Shown: one piece after another, positions 8,964 to 19,748 of the stretch
Numbering within the stretch: position 1 is the stretch's first letter
Layout: each line of letters starts with the position of its first letter
Assembly (NCBI GenBank): GCA_034926675.1
Contig: JAYFQW010000006.1
Span: 62,001 to 126,000, forward strand
DNA length: 64,000 nucleotides
Source: Clostridia bacterium
GTDB lineage: Bacteria; Bacillota; DTU025
Reading direction: 5' to 3'
Notes under the pieces: model-generated
The model's database searches: none
The model's input: only the letters and a program-made list of their open reading frames with translations
What the model was told of the DNA's origin: nothing
Made by a program: the position numbers and the translations under genes

Positions 8964-9929
8964 CTACATTGCTGCATCAGGACCCCAGTCCGGCAGAACG
9001 GAGTTCCCAGTTTCAGTGAGCTGGCACAGGCCGCGGCCTGGCTCGAATGCATGCACCGCGTAATGGCCCGACCCATCGACCCTGGCGGCCACTGCCACTG
9101 CCCTGGAGTCGGGGCTCCATGCAAGCCCAGCATAGCGCGGATCAGTAGCGATTGTGGCCTCCTGGGTCGCAATATCACCGTCACGCCCTATGTCCGCCAC
9201 TGCCACTGTCACTGCCTGCCCCCATCGCTGTGGTTCTCCTCCAATGCAGTATGCAAGCCTGCGCCCATCGGGTGACCATGTCAGGGACCACGGCCAGATG
9301 TCCACTGACACTCCGATCTCGGTTTCATTTCCTGTGAATGTATCCAGGATACGGAGGACTATCGAGCCAGATCCGGACGCGATGTATGCTGCGCGTGCTC
9401 CATCGGAGCTGCCTGCAAGCCCCCATATTCTCCCGGGATCTGCACTGATCGTCGCGCCGTCGCCAGTTGCCATGTCCCGCCGGGTCAAGGCGCCTCTCGA
9501 TACGAACAAGGTGCGGTATCCATCTCCGAGCCAGCACGCGAGAAGCCCTTCGAAAGCAAGAGCCTCCTCACCCGTAACTGCATCGATCAGCTTCGTGGCG
9601 CCGCCAGTCTCGATCATGAGCGCCTCTCCACTCGGCGCCCACCTCGGCGACACCAGACCTGGAAGAGGATCTCCTATTGCCTTTTCCTCCCTCGTACGTA
9701 CGTCATAAGCCCGAAGCCGCCCGTCCGCTCCTTGGAACGCAACGCGCGAGCCGTCAGGCGATATGACAGGGGCAGACGCCCATGTGCAGCTGGATACGGG
9801 GGCCTCATGGATGGCGCCATTGGATACGTTGACGAGGATGAGACCGGGGTTCTGCATGTGATCGGAAAGCGCGGCAATGGTCCCGCCCAGACCATGCTGT
9901 GCAGTGTAGCATGGCGTGTATTCTAGCAT
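8964..9929 (-). CDS. TolB/WD40-like beta-propeller protein
   Basis: A protein of 321 residues with at least four blade motifs of the TolB/DPP-IV type: APVISPDGSRVAFQG, SPRWAPSGEALMI, SLTWSPDGRRLAYC and GLAWSPDSRAVAVAA. No enzyme domain is attached and no clear signal peptide is seen from the chosen start. Function is unknown; such propellers mostly bind peptides or proteins. ATG at 9927-9929 was selected because GAGGTG lies 6 bp before it. It sits downstream of the Dpp operon, separated by a large hairpin. Confidence 0.7.
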   Translation of the reverse strand: MLEYTPCYTAQHGLGGTIAALSDHMQNPGLILVNVSNGAIHEAPVSSCTWASAPVISPDGSRVAFQGADGRLRAYDVRTREEKAIGDPLPGLVSPRWAPSGEALMIETGGATKLIDAVTGEEALAFEGLLACWLGDGYRTLFVSRGALTRRDMATGDGATISADPGRIWGLAGSSDGARAAYIASGSGSIVLRILDTFTGNETEIGVSVDIWPWSLTWSPDGRRLAYCIGGEPQRWGQAVTVAVADIGRDGDIATQEATIATDPRYAGLAWSPDSRAVAVAARVDGSGHYAVHAFEPGRGLCQLTETGNSVLPDWGPDAAM

Positions 9930-9945
9930 CGCTAACACCTCGCTT

Positions 9946-10023
9946 GCGGCCGTGCCTAAGACCAAGTATATGCCTTGCGCACCGATTCTGTGCGCACTGG
10001 CCCCTTGGCTCAGGCACGGCCGC
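9946..10023 (-). terminator. Nested hairpin between the Dpp operon and the propeller gene
   Basis: A perfect 12-bp outer stem (9946-9957 with 10012-10023) encloses a second perfect stem, TGCGCAC (9976-9982) with GTGCGCA (9990-9996). The structure starts 9 bp after the dppF stop. It probably ends the Dpp transcript. It also lies in the leader of the propeller gene if transcription continues. Confidence 0.6.
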
Positions 10024-10031
10024 GGGAGGCC

Positions 10032-11072
10032 TTACTTCATCTCAGCCCTATGGCATGCCACGACATGGCCCTCGCCATGGGCAATCAGAGCCGGTTCCTT
10101 CTCTTTGCAGATATCCATGGTGTAAGGGCACCGCGGGTGCAACCTGCATCCACTCGGGGGGTTGATGGGGTTCGGCACCTCGCCTTGCAGTACCTCTCCA
10201 AAGCCCTTGTATCTCGGATCAGGCACAAACACAGCACCGATCAGGGCCGTGGTGTACGGGTGCAGCGGATTCCGAATCACCTCGTCCACCATCCCCATCT
10301 CCACAACCTTGCCCAGGTACATGACTGCGACCCTGTCGCAGATGTGCCTCGCGGTCGCCAGGTCATGGGTGATGTACACGAAGGTGACGCCTTTCTTCCG
10401 TGAAAGGTCGAGCATCAGATTGAGGACCTCTCCCCTGATCGATACGTCAAGCATCGACACGGGCTCATCGGCTACGATGAAATCGGGATTCAGAGCCAGG
10501 GCGCGCGCTACGGCGATTCTCTGCCGCTGCCCTCCCGACAACTCATGGGGATACCGGCCCATGTACTCCTCTGGAGGAGTCATCTCCACGTCCACGAGTG
10601 TGGACATGACTGTCTCCTGGGCATCCCGAGTCGATTTGGCTATTCCCTGCAGGCGTAGGGGTTCGGAAATGATAGTCTGAACATCCATGCGGGGGTTCAT
10701 CGACTCATACGGATCCTGGAAGATTACCTGCATCTTCCGACGGATCTGCTTCATCTCGACCGAACCCAGCTTCAGTATGTCGACTCCTTCGAGGTTCACG
10801 GAACCACTCGTTGGCTCGATAAGCCTCAGTATCATCCTCGCAAGCGTGGTCTTGCCACAGCCCGATTCGCCCACAATTCCGAAGACCTCGCCCTTCTTCA
10901 CATCAAGGCTGACACCGTCCACCGCGCGGAGCACGGGAGTCTCCTTGGCGCGAAGCGACTGCCCAATGCCCATCCTAACCGGGAAGTGCTTGACCAGATC
11001 ACGCACCTTCAGTATCACATCTCCGGTCTTGGGCGCGCGAGCCTCGCCCGCCTTCGCTACTGCCGAGCCCAT
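10032..11072 (-). CDS. dppF: Oligopeptide/dipeptide ABC transporter ATPase (DppF/OppF type)
   Basis: One of the two ATPases that power the peptide importer, 346 residues. Walker A is GESGCGKTT, the signature is LSGGQRQRIAVARA and Walker B is FIVADEPVSMLD. The C-terminal oligopeptide_HPY domain has the cysteine set GCRLHPRCPYTMDIC...ACH. In a DppD homologue from a thermophilic anaerobe such cysteines hold a [4Fe-4S] cluster, so a cluster is possible here. The start overlaps the dppD end by 16 bp. It is the last gene of the operon SBP-dppB-dppC-dppD-dppF. Confidence 0.92.
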   Translation of the reverse strand: MGSAVAKAGEARAPKTGDVILKVRDLVKHFPVRMGIGQSLRAKETPVLRAVDGVSLDVKKGEVFGIVGESGCGKTTLARMILRLIEPTSGSVNLEGVDILKLGSVEMKQIRRKMQVIFQDPYESMNPRMDVQTIISEPLRLQGIAKSTRDAQETVMSTLVDVEMTPPEEYMGRYPHELSGGQRQRIAVARALALNPDFIVADEPVSMLDVSIRGEVLNLMLDLSRKKGVTFVYITHDLATARHICDRVAVMYLGKVVEMGMVDEVIRNPLHPYTTALIGAVFVPDPRYKGFGEVLQGEVPNPINPPSGCRLHPRCPYTMDICKEKEPALIAHGEGHVVACHRAEMK

Positions 11073-12052
11073 ATGTCCACCCCCTTCTGGGTCAGCTCTG
11101 CCTTATGACATGCCACAAGATGACCCTTCGCTCCCACCTCGCGAGGCATCGGCTCCGCCTGGGTGCATTCCTCATCCGCCAGAGGGCAGCGAGGATGGAA
11201 CCTGCACCCAGACGGTGGGTTCAGCAGGTTGGGTGGAGATCCAGGCAGGGATCTCACGGGAGACCTCTCCGCCTTGATGTTGGGAAAGGACCTGACCAGG
11301 CCTATTGCATAGGGGTGAGCCGGAGTGATGTACACGTCCCGCACATCGCCGTACTCGGCTATCTTGCCGGCGTACATTACTGCCACGGTATCGCATGTTT
11401 GCGCTATCACCGACAGATCGTGGGTGATGAGCATCATGGAGAGATTGAACTTCTCTCTGAGCTCCTCCATGGCCTTCAGCACCTGCGCCTGAACCATGAC
11501 ATCCAGAGCGGTAGTGGGCTCATCCGCAATCATCAGTTCCGGATGGCACGCGAGCGCCATGGCTATGACAGCACGCTGCTTCATACCGCCGCTGAACTCG
11601 TGGGGATACTCACCATAGCGCTTAGGGTTGATCCCAACAAGATCGAGAAGCCCCCGCGCCCGCTCCTGAGCATCCTCGCGGCTGACATCCTCATGCTGCA
11701 CGATGGCCTCGACGATCTGATCGCCAACTCTGTGCACTGGATTCAGGGCGTTCATCGCGCCCTGGAACACCATGGACATCCTCTTCCACCGCACTGTTTT
11801 CCGGAATTGATCCTCCGGCATGTGCAGGATGTCCTGGCCGTCCATGGTCACAGATCCCCCGATTATCTCCGCATTGCTCGGGAGAAGCCGCAGCAGCGCT
11901 GTGGCCATGCTGGATTTTCCGCACCCAGACTCCCCAGCGATTCCGATCGCTTTTCCCCTCTCGATATCAAAGCTGACGGAATCGACCGCCTTGACATGGC
12001 CCCTGAGGGTCCGGTAGTACATCTTCAGGTCTCTCACTTCAAGTAGGGCCAT
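11057..12052 (-). CDS. dppD: Oligopeptide/dipeptide ABC transporter ATPase (DppD/OppD type)
   Basis: First ATPase of the peptide importer, 331 residues. Walker A is GESGCGKSS, the signature is FSGGMKQRAVIAMALA and Walker B is LMIADEPTTALD. The C-terminal domain has GCRFHPRCPLADEEC and a final ACH, again the four-cysteine pattern. It is placed 2 bp after dppC and overlaps dppF. The partner permeases are DppB and the enlarged DppC. Confidence 0.92.
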   Translation of the reverse strand: MALLEVRDLKMYYRTLRGHVKAVDSVSFDIERGKAIGIAGESGCGKSSMATALLRLLPSNAEIIGGSVTMDGQDILHMPEDQFRKTVRWKRMSMVFQGAMNALNPVHRVGDQIVEAIVQHEDVSREDAQERARGLLDLVGINPKRYGEYPHEFSGGMKQRAVIAMALACHPELMIADEPTTALDVMVQAQVLKAMEELREKFNLSMMLITHDLSVIAQTCDTVAVMYAGKIAEYGDVRDVYITPAHPYAIGLVRSFPNIKAERSPVRSLPGSPPNLLNPPSGCRFHPRCPLADEECTQAEPMPREVGAKGHLVACHKAELTQKGVDIWARQ

Positions 12053-12054
12053 GG

Positions 12055-13527
12055 CTACGATCTCTCCCTATACCGTGGATTGAGGACCTCATTCACTGTG
12101 TTGCCGATGAAGACAAATGCCAAGCTGAGGAATGTGAGCGCAAAGCCTGGAGGCAGCAGCCACCACCATGCCAGTTCGGTGAATGCCCCAAACTGCCTGG
12201 CATTCTGCAGCATTCGTCCCCACGTAGGCACTCGAGGGTCGCCAAGGCCCAGGAAGCTTAAGGCAGCCTCCGTCAGGATGGCGCCCGGTATCCTCAGCAC
12301 CAGGTTCGCAAAGATGAGCGGAGTGACGTTGGGAAGGATGTGGGCGGCCATGATATAGTTTCCCGACGCGCCTGACGCTCTCGCCGCCTCAATGAATGTT
12401 CGTTCCTTGAGTGTGAGCGTCTGTGACCGTATGATCCTCGCTATGCCCATCCACGCGAATGCCGACACGATTATCACTACATTGAGAAGGCTCTTTCCGA
12501 ACAGAGCGCCCAGCACAATCAGGATCGGAAGATCTGGAATGGACAGCAGGACGTCCACGAGCCTCATCAGGAACTCGTCCAGGGCGCCTCCAACGTATCC
12601 GCTCACGATTCCCACGGTTGTGCCGATCGCCACCGATATGAAAGCAGAGGCCAGTCCGATGATAAGCGCAAGCCTGGTCCCGTATATCAGTTGCGCCCAT
12701 AGGTCCGATCCCATGTGATCGGTGCCCAGCACTCCGTGGAGCAGTCCGAGGATCTCAAACGTCACCGGGCTTATCCTGACAGACGCGGGCCCAGACGGCG
12801 ACTCAGAGGACACCAAGAATCGAAGCAGGTAGTCGCCCTTCTGTGAGAACACGACTGTGGCAGGATCGTCGAAGAAAGATAGCCCCATTCGCATCTTCAT
12901 ATCGAAATCGCGTGCGTCTGCAATGGCGGGGCTCTCCCCCTGGCTGCCGTTGACGGCAGCGTCCCATAGGTCATGAGTTGTGCCGTCTGGCGAGATCATC
13001 TCGAGCCTCACCTTGGTCACAGCATCATCAGGCGCATCCACTGTGTAGTCGAACTTCGCGGAGAAGGTCTGGGGAGGTTGATAGGCGTACTTCATCCCGT
13101 ACGATAGCACGACGCCATCCCCGGACCCTTCGCCTTCGGCGCGCGCAGGAATGCTGATGTCCACGCCGGCGCCTCGGTCGAATTCGGTCTTGGAAATGGT
13201 CGCTCCCCCGTCCTGCTCAACATGCCAGTCCTTCTCCGCAATTATGTTGCGGGAGGTCGCCGGCCAATCCTGGTATTTCGGATTCACCTTGCCAATCCAA
13301 GCAGGAGCGGCAAGCCGGTCTGCCAGGTACATGTCCTCCATGGGGTTGTAGGGGGTAATGTACGGGGCAAACACTGCAGCGAGCACGTACACGAGCACTA
13401 TTGCCAGCCCGACCATTCCCTGAGGTTTCCTTCGGTACTGCTCCCAGAAGGTGACCGGCCTTGGGGGCCTCGCTGTCGAAATCGCTGCCGATCCAGTCTT
13501 CGCCGCGGTATTCGTATCCTGCGTCAT
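12055..13527 (-). CDS. dppC: Oligopeptide ABC permease DppC with large extracytoplasmic insertion
   Basis: A permease of 490 residues; usual members have 280 to 320. Helix 1 is near residues 37-55. The conserved element LGTDHMGSDLWAQLIYGTR starts only near 267, then five helices and the EAA loop (EAARASGASGNYIMAAHILP) follow as normal. The stretch of about 80-260 is a soluble, beta-strand rich insertion with segments such as FSAKFDYTVDAPDDAVTKVR and GDYLLRFLVS, reminiscent of a beta-sandwich. By topology it is outside the membrane, on the side of the binding protein. It overlaps dppB by 4 bp (ATGA). Confidence 0.9.
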   Translation of the reverse strand: MTQDTNTAAKTGSAAISTARPPRPVTFWEQYRRKPQGMVGLAIVLVYVLAAVFAPYITPYNPMEDMYLADRLAAPAWIGKVNPKYQDWPATSRNIIAEKDWHVEQDGGATISKTEFDRGAGVDISIPARAEGEGSGDGVVLSYGMKYAYQPPQTFSAKFDYTVDAPDDAVTKVRLEMISPDGTTHDLWDAAVNGSQGESPAIADARDFDMKMRMGLSFFDDPATVVFSQKGDYLLRFLVSSESPSGPASVRISPVTFEILGLLHGVLGTDHMGSDLWAQLIYGTRLALIIGLASAFISVAIGTTVGIVSGYVGGALDEFLMRLVDVLLSIPDLPILIVLGALFGKSLLNVVIIVSAFAWMGIARIIRSQTLTLKERTFIEAARASGASGNYIMAAHILPNVTPLIFANLVLRIPGAILTEAALSFLGLGDPRVPTWGRMLQNARQFGAFTELAWWWLLPPGFALTFLSLAFVFIGNTVNEVLNPRYRERS

Positions 13528-14507
13528 CTAGAAACACCTGCCCCCACGCGGATCCTCGGGTCGACCAGACCGTACGCGATATCCGACAAGAAGTTGGAGA
13601 CGATCACGGCGAGCGCGATCAGGTAGAAGGCGCCCTGCGCCGCTGGGTAGTCCATCTGCAGGGTAGCGTCGAGCAGGTATTTGCCGACGCCATACCATGA
13701 GAATATGCTCTCAGTGATCACCGCGCCGGAGACAGCCCCGGGCAATGACATGAATATGATCGTCACGATCGGAGGAAGCACACTGCGGAGCGCATGGTGG
13801 TATAGGATGTCCCGAGGAGGGATTCCCTTCGCCCGAGCAGTAATGATATAGTCCTGCCCCAAGGCCTCAAGCATCGTATTGCGGGTGTACAGGGCCCACG
13901 ATCCGAAGCCCATTATGACCAGGCTCCCTGCGGGCAGCACCAAGTGCCACATCCGGTCGAGCAACCGCAGGAACATGCCATCTGGCGGAGGCGCGCTCAT
14001 TGTGCCATGTATAGGCAGAATCGGCCAGTAGTAGCCGAATAGCAGCAGCAACATAAGCTGTATGAAGAAGCCGGGAACCGCATGGGCGAAAAGCCCGGCG
14101 CCGACCACGAATCTATCAGCGAAAGTATCTCGCCTAGAGGCCGCGTACACCCCTAGAGAGATGCCGACAAGCATGTCCAAGATGAAGGTGACGAGGAACA
14201 ACACGGCAGTGTTCGGAAGCCTCTCTGCAAGCTCCTCTCGCACAGGCCTGCGCGTGGAGAATGAGAGCCCCATATCGAACCTGAGCAAAGAGGTTATGTA
14301 GTTCCAGTACTGCTTCAGCGGCGGATCGTCAAGGCCGTACTGCTTGCGCAGCATCGCCCTTGCCTCTGGAGTGAATTTCGGGTCGATTATCATCTTCGTT
14401 GCATCGCCGGGCATCAAACGAAAGAGGATGAAGTTGAATGTGAGAATTACGAATAGAACAATCACTGCGTAGAATACTCGCCTGAGCAGGTATGATCGAA
14501 AACCCAA
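13524..14507 (-). CDS. dppB: Oligopeptide ABC permease DppB
   Basis: A permease of 327 residues with six predicted helices. N-terminal text FNFILFRLMPGD and the YGLDDPPLKQYWNY segment are family hallmarks. The cytoplasmic EAA loop is DYIITARAKGIPPRDILYHH, which couples to the ATPases. It forms the channel together with DppC. It is separated from the binding protein gene by 87 bp that contain a strong hairpin. Confidence 0.92.
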   Translation of the reverse strand: MGFRSYLLRRVFYAVIVLFVILTFNFILFRLMPGDATKMIIDPKFTPEARAMLRKQYGLDDPPLKQYWNYITSLLRFDMGLSFSTRRPVREELAERLPNTAVLFLVTFILDMLVGISLGVYAASRRDTFADRFVVGAGLFAHAVPGFFIQLMLLLLFGYYWPILPIHGTMSAPPPDGMFLRLLDRMWHLVLPAGSLVIMGFGSWALYTRNTMLEALGQDYIITARAKGIPPRDILYHHALRSVLPPIVTIIFMSLPGAVSGAVITESIFSWYGVGKYLLDATLQMDYPAAQGAFYLIALAVIVSNFLSDIAYGLVDPRIRVGAGVSR

Positions 14508-14594: not shown

Positions 14595-16310
14595 CTACTT
14601 CGCAGTTGGCTTGATGTGCCAGTAGTTCGGGTTCTTCACGAGCGTCACGTACTCGCCTGGCCTGTAGTCCTTCAGCATGAAGGGTCCGAGGCCGATGAGC
14701 TTCGTGAGTCCTTTCACCTTTGGATGGGGCTCTTTCCAAGGCTCGAAGGTCTTGTAGTCCTTGACATCCTTCCATATGTGCTTGGGGATGAGAATGGGAG
14801 ACGCGTTGTACAGGTGCCAGTAGCTCTCTGTGCTGAAGTACACCTTCACCGTGTACTTGTCGACTATTTCCGTCTTCACTATATCCTGGGTCGCAGAGAG
14901 AAGGCGGGCTACCTGCTGCTCCTTAGCGTAGTCGATGGAGAACTTGACATCCTCCGCCGTGAACTCGACTCCGTCCTGCCACTTGACTCCCTTGTTGAGG
15001 TAGAAAGTGATGACGGTGCCCTTCTTGCCAGGCTCAGGGTTCCAAGTTCCAACATCCCACTTGCGGGCGATCCAGGGCATATCCTCGAGGGTCTCCGGAT
15101 GCATCCGGATCAGCGAGTCGGTGATCTTCCGGTATACATCGAACTCGTAGGCGCTGGACATGACCAGCGGGTTCAGGTTCTTCGGCTCCTCTTGGAGCAG
15201 CCAGCGGATGGTGCCGCCCTCAATGGGCTTGCCGGTGCGGTCAACACGGCGGATATTCAGAGGAGTCCAATAGTTCGAGGACTCGGCTGCGCCGAAGCCA
15301 GGCTGCGGCACATAGCCGGTGACTAGGTCCGTGCGCCAGGCATCGATGTACGGCCTCGAGTATAGCGGCACGTACGGCATCTGCTCTGCCAGAATCGCCT
15401 GAGCCTTGTCGGCAGCGGTCTTGGCGCCCTTCTGGTCGACTGCGTAGAACAGAGCCTCAGTGGCCTTATCGAGCTCTGCGTTGTGGATGCCAGGCCTGTT
15501 GTAGCCTGCCTCAACGTCGAAGCTGGAGTGGAAGAAGTCGTACAGGAAGGTAGGATCACGGTCGAGGCCCCATGCAAGGGCGTACATATCGAACTCAGAC
15601 CTGTCCAGCTTATCGAGCATGACTGGAAAATCCATCGGCTCGGGAACGATGGGGATGCCGATCGCCTGCGCGGCTTCAGCGATCATCCTGCCAATTTCGG
15701 CAGAGGTGGGCGCCACTTCGTATGTAGGCGTAAAGAACTTGATCTCAGGCAGCGGCTTGCCGGTCTTGGGATCGATCCGGTTCTTGCCTGTGGCGTCAAG
15801 CTTGTACCCGGCCTTGTCGAGGAGCTCCTTCGCCTTGGCAGGGTTGTACGGGTACGTAGGGACATCTGACTTGTAGTAGTTCGACGACTGCGGCACGAAA
15901 CTGGTCATCGGCAGCATGTAACCCTTGAAGAGGGTCCGGATGATGTTGTCGCGATCAGTTACGTACGCAATGGCCTGACGCAGGACCTGGGAATCCAGGG
16001 GGGCCTTGCGCATATTGAAGCACACATAGAACATATGGAACCCGAGAACCTGGGTGAGCTCGACGTTCGAGCTGCCTTTGAGCTTGTCGATGTCCGCCGG
16101 CCTGGTGAGGCCTGGGAATACAATGCTCTCTCCGCGCTCGAACGCAATGCGCCGGGCCTCAGAGTCCTTCACGATCGGCATGATGATGGTGTCAACGTGG
16201 GGTCCCCAATCCTCCCACTTGAATTTCGCGGCACTCTCCACGCTCGACGCGCCAAACACGAGTGCAAACAGCAACACTAGGGCGACGGACAAGCGGATCC
16301 TTCTTAGCAT
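14595..16310 (-). CDS. Peptide-binding lipoprotein-like SBP (family 5) in circularly permuted order
   Basis: Extracellular binding subunit of the peptide importer, 571 residues. A signal peptide spans residues 1-28 (MLRRIRLSVALVLLFALVFG...); there is no lipobox Cys. The mature part begins with the family's second half: VDTIIMPIVKDSEARRIAFE at 39-58, NMRKAPLDSQVLRQAIAYVT at 99-118, FFHSSFDVEAGYN at 259-271 and PYVPLYSRP at 312-320. Only then comes the normal beginning: GGTIRWLLQEEPKNLNPLV from 365, GVKWQDGVEFTAEDVKFS at 441-458, PKHIWKDV at 509-516, GPFMLKDYRPGEYV at 542-555 and NPNYW at 560-564, followed by the stop. In ordinary members NPNYW leads directly into the VDxIIxPIxxD strand. AAGGAGGT lies 8 bp before ATG at 16310. 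Confidence 0.9.
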   Translation of the reverse strand: MLRRIRLSVALVLLFALVFGASSVESAAKFKWEDWGPHVDTIIMPIVKDSEARRIAFERGESIVFPGLTRPADIDKLKGSSNVELTQVLGFHMFYVCFNMRKAPLDSQVLRQAIAYVTDRDNIIRTLFKGYMLPMTSFVPQSSNYYKSDVPTYPYNPAKAKELLDKAGYKLDATGKNRIDPKTGKPLPEIKFFTPTYEVAPTSAEIGRMIAEAAQAIGIPIVPEPMDFPVMLDKLDRSEFDMYALAWGLDRDPTFLYDFFHSSFDVEAGYNRPGIHNAELDKATEALFYAVDQKGAKTAADKAQAILAEQMPYVPLYSRPYIDAWRTDLVTGYVPQPGFGAAESSNYWTPLNIRRVDRTGKPIEGGTIRWLLQEEPKNLNPLVMSSAYEFDVYRKITDSLIRMHPETLEDMPWIARKWDVGTWNPEPGKKGTVITFYLNKGVKWQDGVEFTAEDVKFSIDYAKEQQVARLLSATQDIVKTEIVDKYTVKVYFSTESYWHLYNASPILIPKHIWKDVKDYKTFEPWKEPHPKVKGLTKLIGLGPFMLKDYRPGEYVTLVKNPNYWHIKPTAK

Positions 16311-16576
16311 CAAGTTATACCTCCTTGCGATACGAGATTGAACCGCGGTTGCACTGCAGTGGAACCGAAACCCGTAGGATTTGTTCTCACATCCCTCCCT
16401 CCGATAACCAGCGATTTGGAAAGGACAGCAAATCATGGCGAATATACCTCTGCCGATTGTATTCGGCGCCAGGGAGCGAAACTCCTTCTAACAACGGCCT
16501 AGCCCAAGGTCCCATATTCAGCAGGGTATAATCCGTAGTGACTACAACACAGCAGGACGTAATCGCGAATAGAGGA

Positions 16577-17208: not shown

Positions 17209-17955
17209 TTAGCTTCCCCCGAGGTAGGCCTGGCGCACCTTCTCATCCTGTGCGAGTTCACGTGCTGCTCCGGAGAGGATAACCCTTCCGGTCTCCAGAA
17301 CATAGGCCCGGTCCGCAATCGACAGAGCCATGTTCGCGTTCTGCTCCACCAGGAGCACTGTAGCTCCGGATTCCCGTATCTTGACTATGGTGTCGAATAT
17401 CTCTCTTACAAGAAGTGGAGCAAGTCCCATAGAAGGTTCATCAAGCAGGAGCAGATCCGGCCTCGACATGAGCCCTCTGGCAGTGGCCAACATCTGCTGT
17501 TCCCCTCCAGAGAGAGTGCCCGCGATCTGGCCTGATCTCTCCAGGAGCCGCGGAAACAGCTCAAACGCCCATGCCAGGTCGGCAGCGATTCCCGCCTTGT
17601 CGTTCCTGGCGTACGCTCCAAGCTGGAGATTATCGAGAACGCTGAGGTTGGCGAATATCCTTCTGCCTTCAGGCACATGCGATATTCCCAGGGAAACTAT
17701 CTTGTGCGCAGGTACGGCAGCCAGATTAACCATGGACTCATTTCTACTCGAGGCCTTTGTGGACGTGAACGCAATCGAACCGGACGTGGGCCGGATAAGC
17801 CCCGACACAGTCCGCAGTATGGTGCTCTTGCCCGCTCCATTGGCGCCGATCAGGGTCACGATCTCCCCTCGGTCCACATCGAACGATACGCCCTTTATGG
17901 CGTGGATCGCTCCATAGCTCACGTTAAGGTCATTCACTGAGAGCAGCATCAGCAC
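17209..17955 (-). CDS. livF: Branched-chain amino acid type ABC ATPase LivF
   Basis: An ATPase of 248 residues with Walker A GANGAGKST, signature LSGGEQQMLATARGLM and Walker B LLLLDEPSMGLAPLL. The last two features are typical of LivF. It overlaps the LivM-LivG fusion gene by 7 bp. Together with livH and livMG it forms a complete membrane and ATPase set for uptake of branched-chain amino acids or related compounds such as amides or urea. No binding protein gene is in the window. Confidence 0.92.
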   Translation of the reverse strand: MLMLLSVNDLNVSYGAIHAIKGVSFDVDRGEIVTLIGANGAGKSTILRTVSGLIRPTSGSIAFTSTKASSRNESMVNLAAVPAHKIVSLGISHVPEGRRIFANLSVLDNLQLGAYARNDKAGIAADLAWAFELFPRLLERSGQIAGTLSGGEQQMLATARGLMSRPDLLLLDEPSMGLAPLLVREIFDTIVKIRESGATVLLVEQNANMALSIADRAYVLETGRVILSGAARELAQDEKVRQAYLGGS

Positions 17956-19748
17956 ACCTCCTCGCCGAGGTAGGCCTCGACGACCCTTCGGTTGCGCCTT
18001 ATCTCCTCAGGAGAGCCCTCAGCAATCGTGATCCCATAATCAAGGACTACGATCCGCTCGCACAGCTTCATGACCAGACTCATGTCGTGTTCAATCAGGA
18101 GAATAGTCAGCCCAAAGCGGTCGCGGATCCACAGGATCAGTTCTGAGAGTTCGCTTGTCTCCTGAGGGTTCATCCCGGCCGCAGGCTCATCTAGAAGAAG
18201 GACCCGGGGACCAGTGGCGAGGGCCCGAGCGATCTCAAGCCTGCGCTGCGCGCCGTACGGAAGTGAACTCGCCATTTCGTCCGCCTTGTCATCAAGGTGC
18301 AGAAGCTTCAGGAGTTCCAACGACTTCACGCGTATCTGCTCTTCCTGGGCGCCGTATCTTCCGGCCCGAATCACAGCCTCAGCCATGGAATACTCACATT
18401 CGCCATGGAACGCCGTCCTCACATTATCCAGGACCGAAAGGCTGTTGAACAGCCGGATGTTCTGGAACGTGCGCGCCATGCCCATGGCAGCAACGTGCGA
18501 TGCCTTTCTGTTTGTTATGGTCTTTCCCATCAGGCGGACTTCGCCGGATGTAGCGTCAAGCATCCCTGTAAGCATGTTGAACACCGTGGTTTTCCCGGCG
18601 CCGTTCGGGCCGATCAACCCCACCAGCTCTCCATGGCGCAGGGCAACGCTGAACTTCGACACTGCCTGAAGGCCCCCGAAGGAACGCGACAGATCGCAGG
18701 CTTCCAAAACAGGGACCTCGTCCGACAGCTTCAGCGGGCGGCGACGCTCAAGCTCCGGCTGGCCGCCGGACCCGCTGGGCGCTGACCGTCCTTTGCCATT
18801 GCCAAGCCCCAACGACGCAAAGGAGAATTCAGTCGTTCCCATCAGCCCCTTGGGGCGGTAGATCATCATCACGATGAGCATCAGCGAGTAGATGACCATC
18901 CGATACTCGGCAGCCCCCCGCAGAAGCTCTGGAAGCATGGTCACTATGACTGCGGCGACAACTGTGCCCGTGAGGCTTCCAAGGCCGCCGAGGACTATAA
19001 CGACCAGGGATTCAATGGATTTCATGAAATCGAACTGCCTGGGATCGATGAAGGTTATCTTGTGCGCGTACAGCCCCCCAGCGACCCCTGCGAAGAATGC
19101 TCCGATGATGAAAGCGAGGATCTTGTATCTGGTTGTGTCGATGCCCACAGCCTCCGCAGCCGTCTCATCCTCGCGTATCGCCACGAACGCCCTGCCCTGC
19201 TTCGACCAGATCATGTTCCTAATGATAAGAACCACAGCCGCTGCAGTCCAATACGCCCAGGCCATGCTGGTGTTTGCGGGAATCGCCCACATGCCTCTGG
19301 ATCCTCCAACTGCCTCGATGTTGACTATCGCCACACGGATTATCTCGCCGAAACCCAGAGTGGCTATGGCCAGGTAGTCTCCGTGCAGCCTCAGCGTTGG
19401 AACGCCGACTAACACTCCGCCGACCGCTGCGCCGATTCCACCGGCAAGCAGGGCCAGGGGAAATGGAAGGCCCATCATCTTGGTCATGTATGCCGCAATG
19501 TATGCTCCGATCGCCATGAATCCCGCATGCCCCAGGGAGAATTGCCCGGTGAATCCGTTGATCAGGTTGAGGCTTGCCCCCATGATCACATTGATCCCGA
19601 TCCAGATGATGATCTGCACATGGTAGTCGGATAGCACGCCCGCCCGGTAAAGCCATGTAAGCCCCAGGTATCCGAGAGCGAGGGCCCCTGCCCCGATGAA
19701 TAGCCGCAGCGCCGTCCTGCGTTTGTCCGAACCACTCACTTCGCTCAT
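17949..19748 (-). CDS. LivM-LivG fusion: permease joined to ATPase
   Basis: A single protein of 599 residues. Residues about 1-310 are a LivM permease: GHAGFMAIGAYIAAYMTK, then VGVPTLRLHGDYLAIATLGF and GGLGSLTGTVVAAVIV. A Gly/Ser/Pro-rich linker of about 35 residues follows. From about 345 there is a full LivG ATPase with Walker A GPNGAGKTT, the ARTFQNIRLF motif, signature LPYGAQRRLEIARAL and Walker B VLLLDEPAAGMNP. The frame is continuous and the linker looks like a designed joint, not a frameshift scar. Fusion fixes a 1:1 ratio of the two parts. Such fusions are known in some bacteria. ATG at 19748 follows a GGAGGAGCGG site. Confidence 0.9.
   Translation of the reverse strand: MSEVSGSDKRRTALRLFIGAGALALGYLGLTWLYRAGVLSDYHVQIIIWIGINVIMGASLNLINGFTGQFSLGHAGFMAIGAYIAAYMTKMMGLPFPLALLAGGIGAAVGGVLVGVPTLRLHGDYLAIATLGFGEIIRVAIVNIEAVGGSRGMWAIPANTSMAWAYWTAAAVVLIIRNMIWSKQGRAFVAIREDETAAEAVGIDTTRYKILAFIIGAFFAGVAGGLYAHKITFIDPRQFDFMKSIESLVVIVLGGLGSLTGTVVAAVIVTMLPELLRGAAEYRMVIYSLMLIVMMIYRPKGLMGTTEFSFASLGLGNGKGRSAPSGSGGQPELERRRPLKLSDEVPVLEACDLSRSFGGLQAVSKFSVALRHGELVGLIGPNGAGKTTVFNMLTGMLDATSGEVRLMGKTITNRKASHVAAMGMARTFQNIRLFNSLSVLDNVRTAFHGECEYSMAEAVIRAGRYGAQEEQIRVKSLELLKLLHLDDKADEMASSLPYGAQRRLEIARALATGPRVLLLDEPAAGMNPQETSELSELILWIRDRFGLTILLIEHDMSLVMKLCERIVVLDYGITIAEGSPEEIRRNRRVVEAYLGEEVC

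Follow-up and report, generated by a model that had tools for sequence, protein, structure and literature searches.

A probable natural circular permutant among the family 5 binding proteins, encoded with a DppBCDF-type importer

The closest relatives of the binding protein (SBP) described here are the cluster C proteins DppA, OppA, AppA and NikA, with which it shares the sequence family (above the Pfam cut-off), the DppBCDF operon type and, to judge from a structure model, probably the fold. It differs from them in that the two halves are swapped, the termini lie in a loop of lobe I, R383 is missing and D436 is not conserved. Many structures have been solved for family 5, which is among the largest SBP families, yet the PDB chains matched included no permuted member and all had the normal order. 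The preliminary description of the locus knew of no permuted member of this family, and none was found to be described in the open-access literature searched. Most subscription papers were outside that scope, and this is not proof of absence.

Precedent was found only in another SBP class. TpMglB-2 (Tp0684) of Treponema pallidum, assigned to 'Cluster Bc', is a naturally circularly permuted SBP with homologues in several organisms, and its authors could not exclude an origin from another gene (PMC4990184). Like the protein described here it is a natural SBP permutation, but it belongs to the sugar-binding class of cluster B and its permutation, in the N-lobe, is unrelated. No homology of our protein to MglB-type proteins was found: SBP_bac_5 was the only Pfam family above the cut-off, and all listed PDB relatives were family 5 proteins. 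On the permease side, MalF-P2 of the maltose importer is an extracytoplasmic domain of about 180 residues which contacts its SBP, MalE (PMC3150292). An insert in the DppC permease of the present operon may act alike; permease family and position differ, and no homology is claimed.

The gene lies in the window, i.e. the whole stretch of 64,000 nucleotides that was analysed. We consider it very likely that it encodes a naturally circularly permuted family 5 (cluster C) SBP serving the DppBCDF-type ABC importer encoded behind it, the function being inferred in the absence of expression, binding or transport data.

Order of the segments and position of the new termini

The open reading frame runs uninterrupted on the minus strand from an ATG at 16310 to a stop at 14595. 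For the comparison, family 5 SBPs were divided into segment A (the normal N-half up to NPNYW), segment B (VDxIIxP to AGYxxD, in ordinary SBPs the part directly after NPNYW) and segment C (the rest). The normal order is ABC; that of the window SBP is BCA, which was named CP1. The features of the gene, all on the minus strand, are:

14595..16310, minus: coding sequence of the circularly permuted family 5 SBP, 571 aa, P0001 (ORF and Pfam scan)
16319..16326, minus: ribosome-binding site AAGGAGGT, 8 nt upstream of the ATG (sequence)
16230..16310, minus: signal peptide, residues ~1-27, without lipobox cysteine (sequence; cleavage site inferred)
15750..16223, minus: segment B, residues 30-187, VDTIIMP... 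to AGYKLD..., now the mature N-terminus (Pfam, PDB-chain and DppA alignments)
15255..15749, minus: segment C, residues 188-352, normal C-terminal part of the family (segment HMMs, DppA alignment)
15219..15254, minus: linker RRVDRTGKPIEG between the ancestral C- and N-termini (homologue alignment)
14607..15218, minus: segment A, residues 365-568, GGTIRW... to NPNYW (normal N-half), now C-terminal (Pfam, PDB-chain and DppA alignments)

An obvious lipobox is also absent from the eight ordinary family 5 SBPs of the genome. The linker varies in length, being 5-6 residues shorter in some homologues, and its flanks are conserved.

Pfam SBP_bac_5 (PF00496) matched the protein with 254 bits, against a curated cut-off of 32.4, and a single collinear match over the whole chain was ruled out, since the match splits into two stretches in swapped order. 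The best of these aligns residues 36-263 with profile positions 145-364; when the whole genome was scanned, profile positions 145-364 were matched by the first half of the protein and positions 4-147 by the second half. As an internal control for the swapped order, the other SBP_bac_5 genes of this genome, eight in number, gave one collinear match each. PDB-chain comparison with DppA aligned query residues 35-170 with 205-341, 371-466 with 6-101 and 538-568 with 179-209, and AppA and other solved family 5 SBPs gave the same swap by sequence. In the alignment to E. coli DppA the N-half comprises residues ~365-568 and the C-half residues ~30-352, close to the swapped halves of the preliminary description (residues ~29-357 and 365-564). 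The strong ribosome site that it reported is indeed present 8 nt before the ATG, and the PF00496 alignment that it proposed as a check gave two matches in the order claimed. Annotation relying on a single collinear domain match misreads such permuted SBPs as fragments.

In the numbering of E. coli DppA the new termini correspond to residues ~234-240 of the precursor, or ~206-211 of the mature protein. The cut lies in a loop flanked by two strands, one that finishes with NPNYW and one that contains VDTIIMP; in the structure model these are E554-559 and E41-46. It had earlier been placed at the interdomain linker; according to the DppA alignment and the strands of the model, the new termini lie instead in a surface loop inside lobe I, the lobe boundaries being those which we take to hold for DppA and OppA. 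Structure prediction had also been proposed beforehand: AlphaFold2, run with a 24-row alignment of permuted sequences, predicted a confident SBP-type fold in the permuted order (pLDDT 83.6, pTM 0.82). With Foldseek the best PDB matches of this model were AppA (1xoc) and family 5 SBPs. Only about 300 of the 571 residues were aligned because Foldseek is a sequential aligner, as is expected for a permutant.

From these data a mode of action can be inferred. The ancestral termini would lie close together, so that a linker of 5-12 residues can join them, and the new ends would lie in a loop that connects two neighbouring strands of lobe I, leaving the binding cleft undisturbed. The permuted SBP would then close on its ligand by the usual Venus-flytrap movement and dock on DppBC, where the domain inserted in DppC would offer an additional docking or capture surface, by analogy to MalF-P2 with MalE.

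In DppA, R383 binds the carboxylate of the dipeptide and D436 its amino group (PMC12136057). In the DppA alignment the window SBP has no Arg at the R383 site, and the D436 region is variable among the homologues. Judged from these residues, without binding data, the ligand is probably not a plain dipeptide, and a DppA-like dipeptide receptor is unsupported.

Distribution of CP1, its operon and the insert in DppC

Full-length collinear homologues with 49-69% identity were present in 24 other public metagenome-assembled contigs. Of 399 genomes sampled from the phylum, 26, belonging to 10 families, had CP1, and the scores of this search included no intermediate values. In a sample of 73 genomes from another class CP1 was detected in 19, in two of which it is split over contigs; the two samples partly overlap. 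No permuted homologue was located on a plasmid among the best 15 matches listed. When distinct ORFs were classed with the segment HMMs, 41 had the order BCA, 48 ABC and 8 CAB. For five close CP1 pairs dN/dS was 0.04-0.10; the CP1 gene is under strong purifying selection. The gene is not a singleton: the suggested search for homologues with the same order found them in dozens of related genomes, and it is one member of large permuted families.

The genes behind the SBP gene, also on the minus strand, are:

13524..14507, minus: dppB-type permease, BPD_transp_1 (Pfam)
12055..13527, minus: dppC-type permease, 490 aa, OppC_N and BPD_transp_1 (Pfam)
12730..13302, minus: extracytoplasmic insert of DppC, ~190 aa, between TM1 and the transport domain (insert profile)
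11057..12052, minus: dppD-type ATPase, ABC_tran and oligo_HPY (Pfam)
10032..11072, minus: oppF/dppF-type ATPase, ABC_tran and oligo_HPY (Pfam)

The window SBP thus has both a signal peptide and a cognate DppBCDF-type importer. The complete transporter operon noticed before is made up of these DppBCDF-type genes, and together with the purifying selection and the conserved segment order it supports the earlier impression that the gene is functional, still in the absence of experimental data. The operon is followed at 8964-9965 by a WD40/TolB-like beta-propeller protein without obvious signal peptide; homologues at 46-47% follow the operon in two other loci (L016 and L017).

The DppC of the window owes its length of 490 aa to an insertion of about 190 residues between TM1 and the transport domain. 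There is no Pfam match inside the insert, its profile had no significant PDB match, and no homology to MalF-P2 was found. Across the operons examined, DppC measured 444-555 aa. The insert profile matched 27 of the 399 genomes, exactly the 26 CP1 genomes and G011, whose contig begins inside dppB. In the 73-genome sample there were 19 genomes with the insert and 19 with CP1, the mismatches being G419 and G471; each of the three mismatches in the two samples lies at a contig end.

The only other insert match in the 73-genome sample, G453, led to a long divergent family of SBPs (P0003 and relatives, 816-892 aa) with the order B-C-A plus about 110 residues, carried by 43 genomes out of 73 from one class. 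It aligned collinearly with CP1 in the permuted order (probability 98.8%, E 5e-17). The nearest solved relative of this long permuted family, the 732-aa oligopeptide SBP of PDB 7fi3, has the normal order: P0003 residues 497-707 match chain residues 102-311, and residues 77-262 match 366-570. In P0003 (L209, 7273-9738) the extra ~110 residues, at ~713-822, follow on the new C-terminus and have no Pfam match. DppC of the long family measured 443-447 aa in the 18 operons that are not cut by a contig end and 445 aa in G453, and the DppC inserts of the long family and CP1 are related (probability 96%, E 4e-9).

Two explanations of the pairing of permuted SBP and DppC insert have to be weighed. The permutation may be neutral and the DppC insertion unrelated, both having been fixed in the same ancestral operon. 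The SBP and DppC genes are always neighbours and are therefore inherited together, and such linkage in one operon may by itself explain the pairing. In addition, SBPs with the CAB order (named CP2) use a DppC of normal size (290-316 aa). Against linked inheritance only, the pair has been kept in two SBP subfamilies that diverged deeply and in at least 10 bacterial families, while similarity has fallen to near undetectable, and no insert was seen together with an SBP of normal order, though the profile detected a single long-family insert, that of G453. We give linked inheritance alone a little under an even chance. Alternatively, permuted SBP and DppC insert constitute a co-adapted docking module, an ancient and undescribed Dpp-type subclass spanning at least two deeply diverged SBP families, with permutation fixed repeatedly at preferred cuts; this proposal we can put forward only tentatively. 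Whichever applies, the co-occurrence with a permease insertion makes docking of the SBP testable.

Further permutations and the origin of the swapped order

CP2 was found at L051, L062, L069-L072, L101, L103 and L214. A full-length CP2 gene was present in six genomes of the 399-genome sample, some with a second copy, and also in G429; the raw tally of 8 had also counted G215, with a truncated SBP-OppF chimera, and the genome carrying CP3 (see below). In the chimeric ORF (L107 4898-6358, G215:C27) a truncated CP2-type SBP is followed by an OppF-type ATPase, owing either to deletion of the intervening genes or to an assembly error. The finished isolate genome of Natranaerobius thermophilus carries two CP2 genes, each in a DppBCDF operon. 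This genome is the CP2 host G062, whose contigs measure 17207, 3165557 and 8689 bases; over its first 8000 bases the 17-kb contig shows 100% identity to plasmid pNTHE01 of this species. The structure model of CP2 was too poor for use (pLDDT 53.5 from 6 sequences).

A third permuted gene, CP3 (G370:C8:2-1543), shares its cut with CP2, but is placed in a normal-order clade. Its orthologues in G216 and G404 have the order ABC and are ~75% identical, and all parts of CP3 match these same normal-order orthologues at 70-76%. CP3 is a recent permutation, resting on one assembly in which the contig starts at the gene. CP1 and CP2 each form a single clade; the data neither establish nor exclude a joint clade of the two (p-AU 0.228). 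A single origin of CP2 and CP3 was rejected (p-AU 1e-54), so at least two independent permutations have originated in the family, and the existence of these further permutations indicates that the fold tolerates permutation. Natural permutants at different cuts, one of them with ~75% identical normal-order orthologues, amount to a natural experiment on origin and tolerance.

The rearrangement probably came about by tandem duplication, fusion and trimming. The route proposed initially, in which a tandem copy was fused and then trimmed at each end, is plausible but lacks proof; no fusion remnant was found elsewhere in the window, and no intermediate was found. Instead of a single gene having been permuted, the C-half of one SBP could have been fused with the N-half of another paralogue. 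In the segment trees the closest normal-order parent stays unresolved for both halves, and over B+C the closest normal relatives share only 32-37% identity, which leaves room for such a fusion. However, both halves group alike and are complementary with nothing missing, and the parts of CP3 share the same normal-order orthologues, which indicates that true permutation does happen in this family. We regard a fusion of paralogues as unlikely and retain the permutation of a single gene. That an ordinary SBP gene was misjoined, or a tandem duplication of it collapsed, during assembly can be dismissed almost entirely: the window genome is a 90-contig draft and the CP1 homologues come from MAGs or drafts, but the same order and the same junctions recur at 45-70% identity in dozens of independent assemblies, on contigs of up to 460 kb, these independent full-length collinear homologues exclude misassembly, and the finished Natranaerobius thermophilus genome contains a different permutation.

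Some neighbouring arrangements were also recorded. In one genome (G027; L210 1372-3447) an ordinary family 5 SBP is present as two ORFs, an N-half and a C-half, 34 bases apart; frameshift, sequencing error and true split were not distinguished. In the window itself, 17949-19748 is one ORF of 599 aa, apparently a fusion of a LivM-type permease and a LivG-type ATPase, which adjoins LivF and LivH genes. Finally, two CP1 copies lie in tandem ahead of one DppBC permease at L015 (3877-7707) and L019 (3468-7704), suggesting SBP duplication for ligand range.
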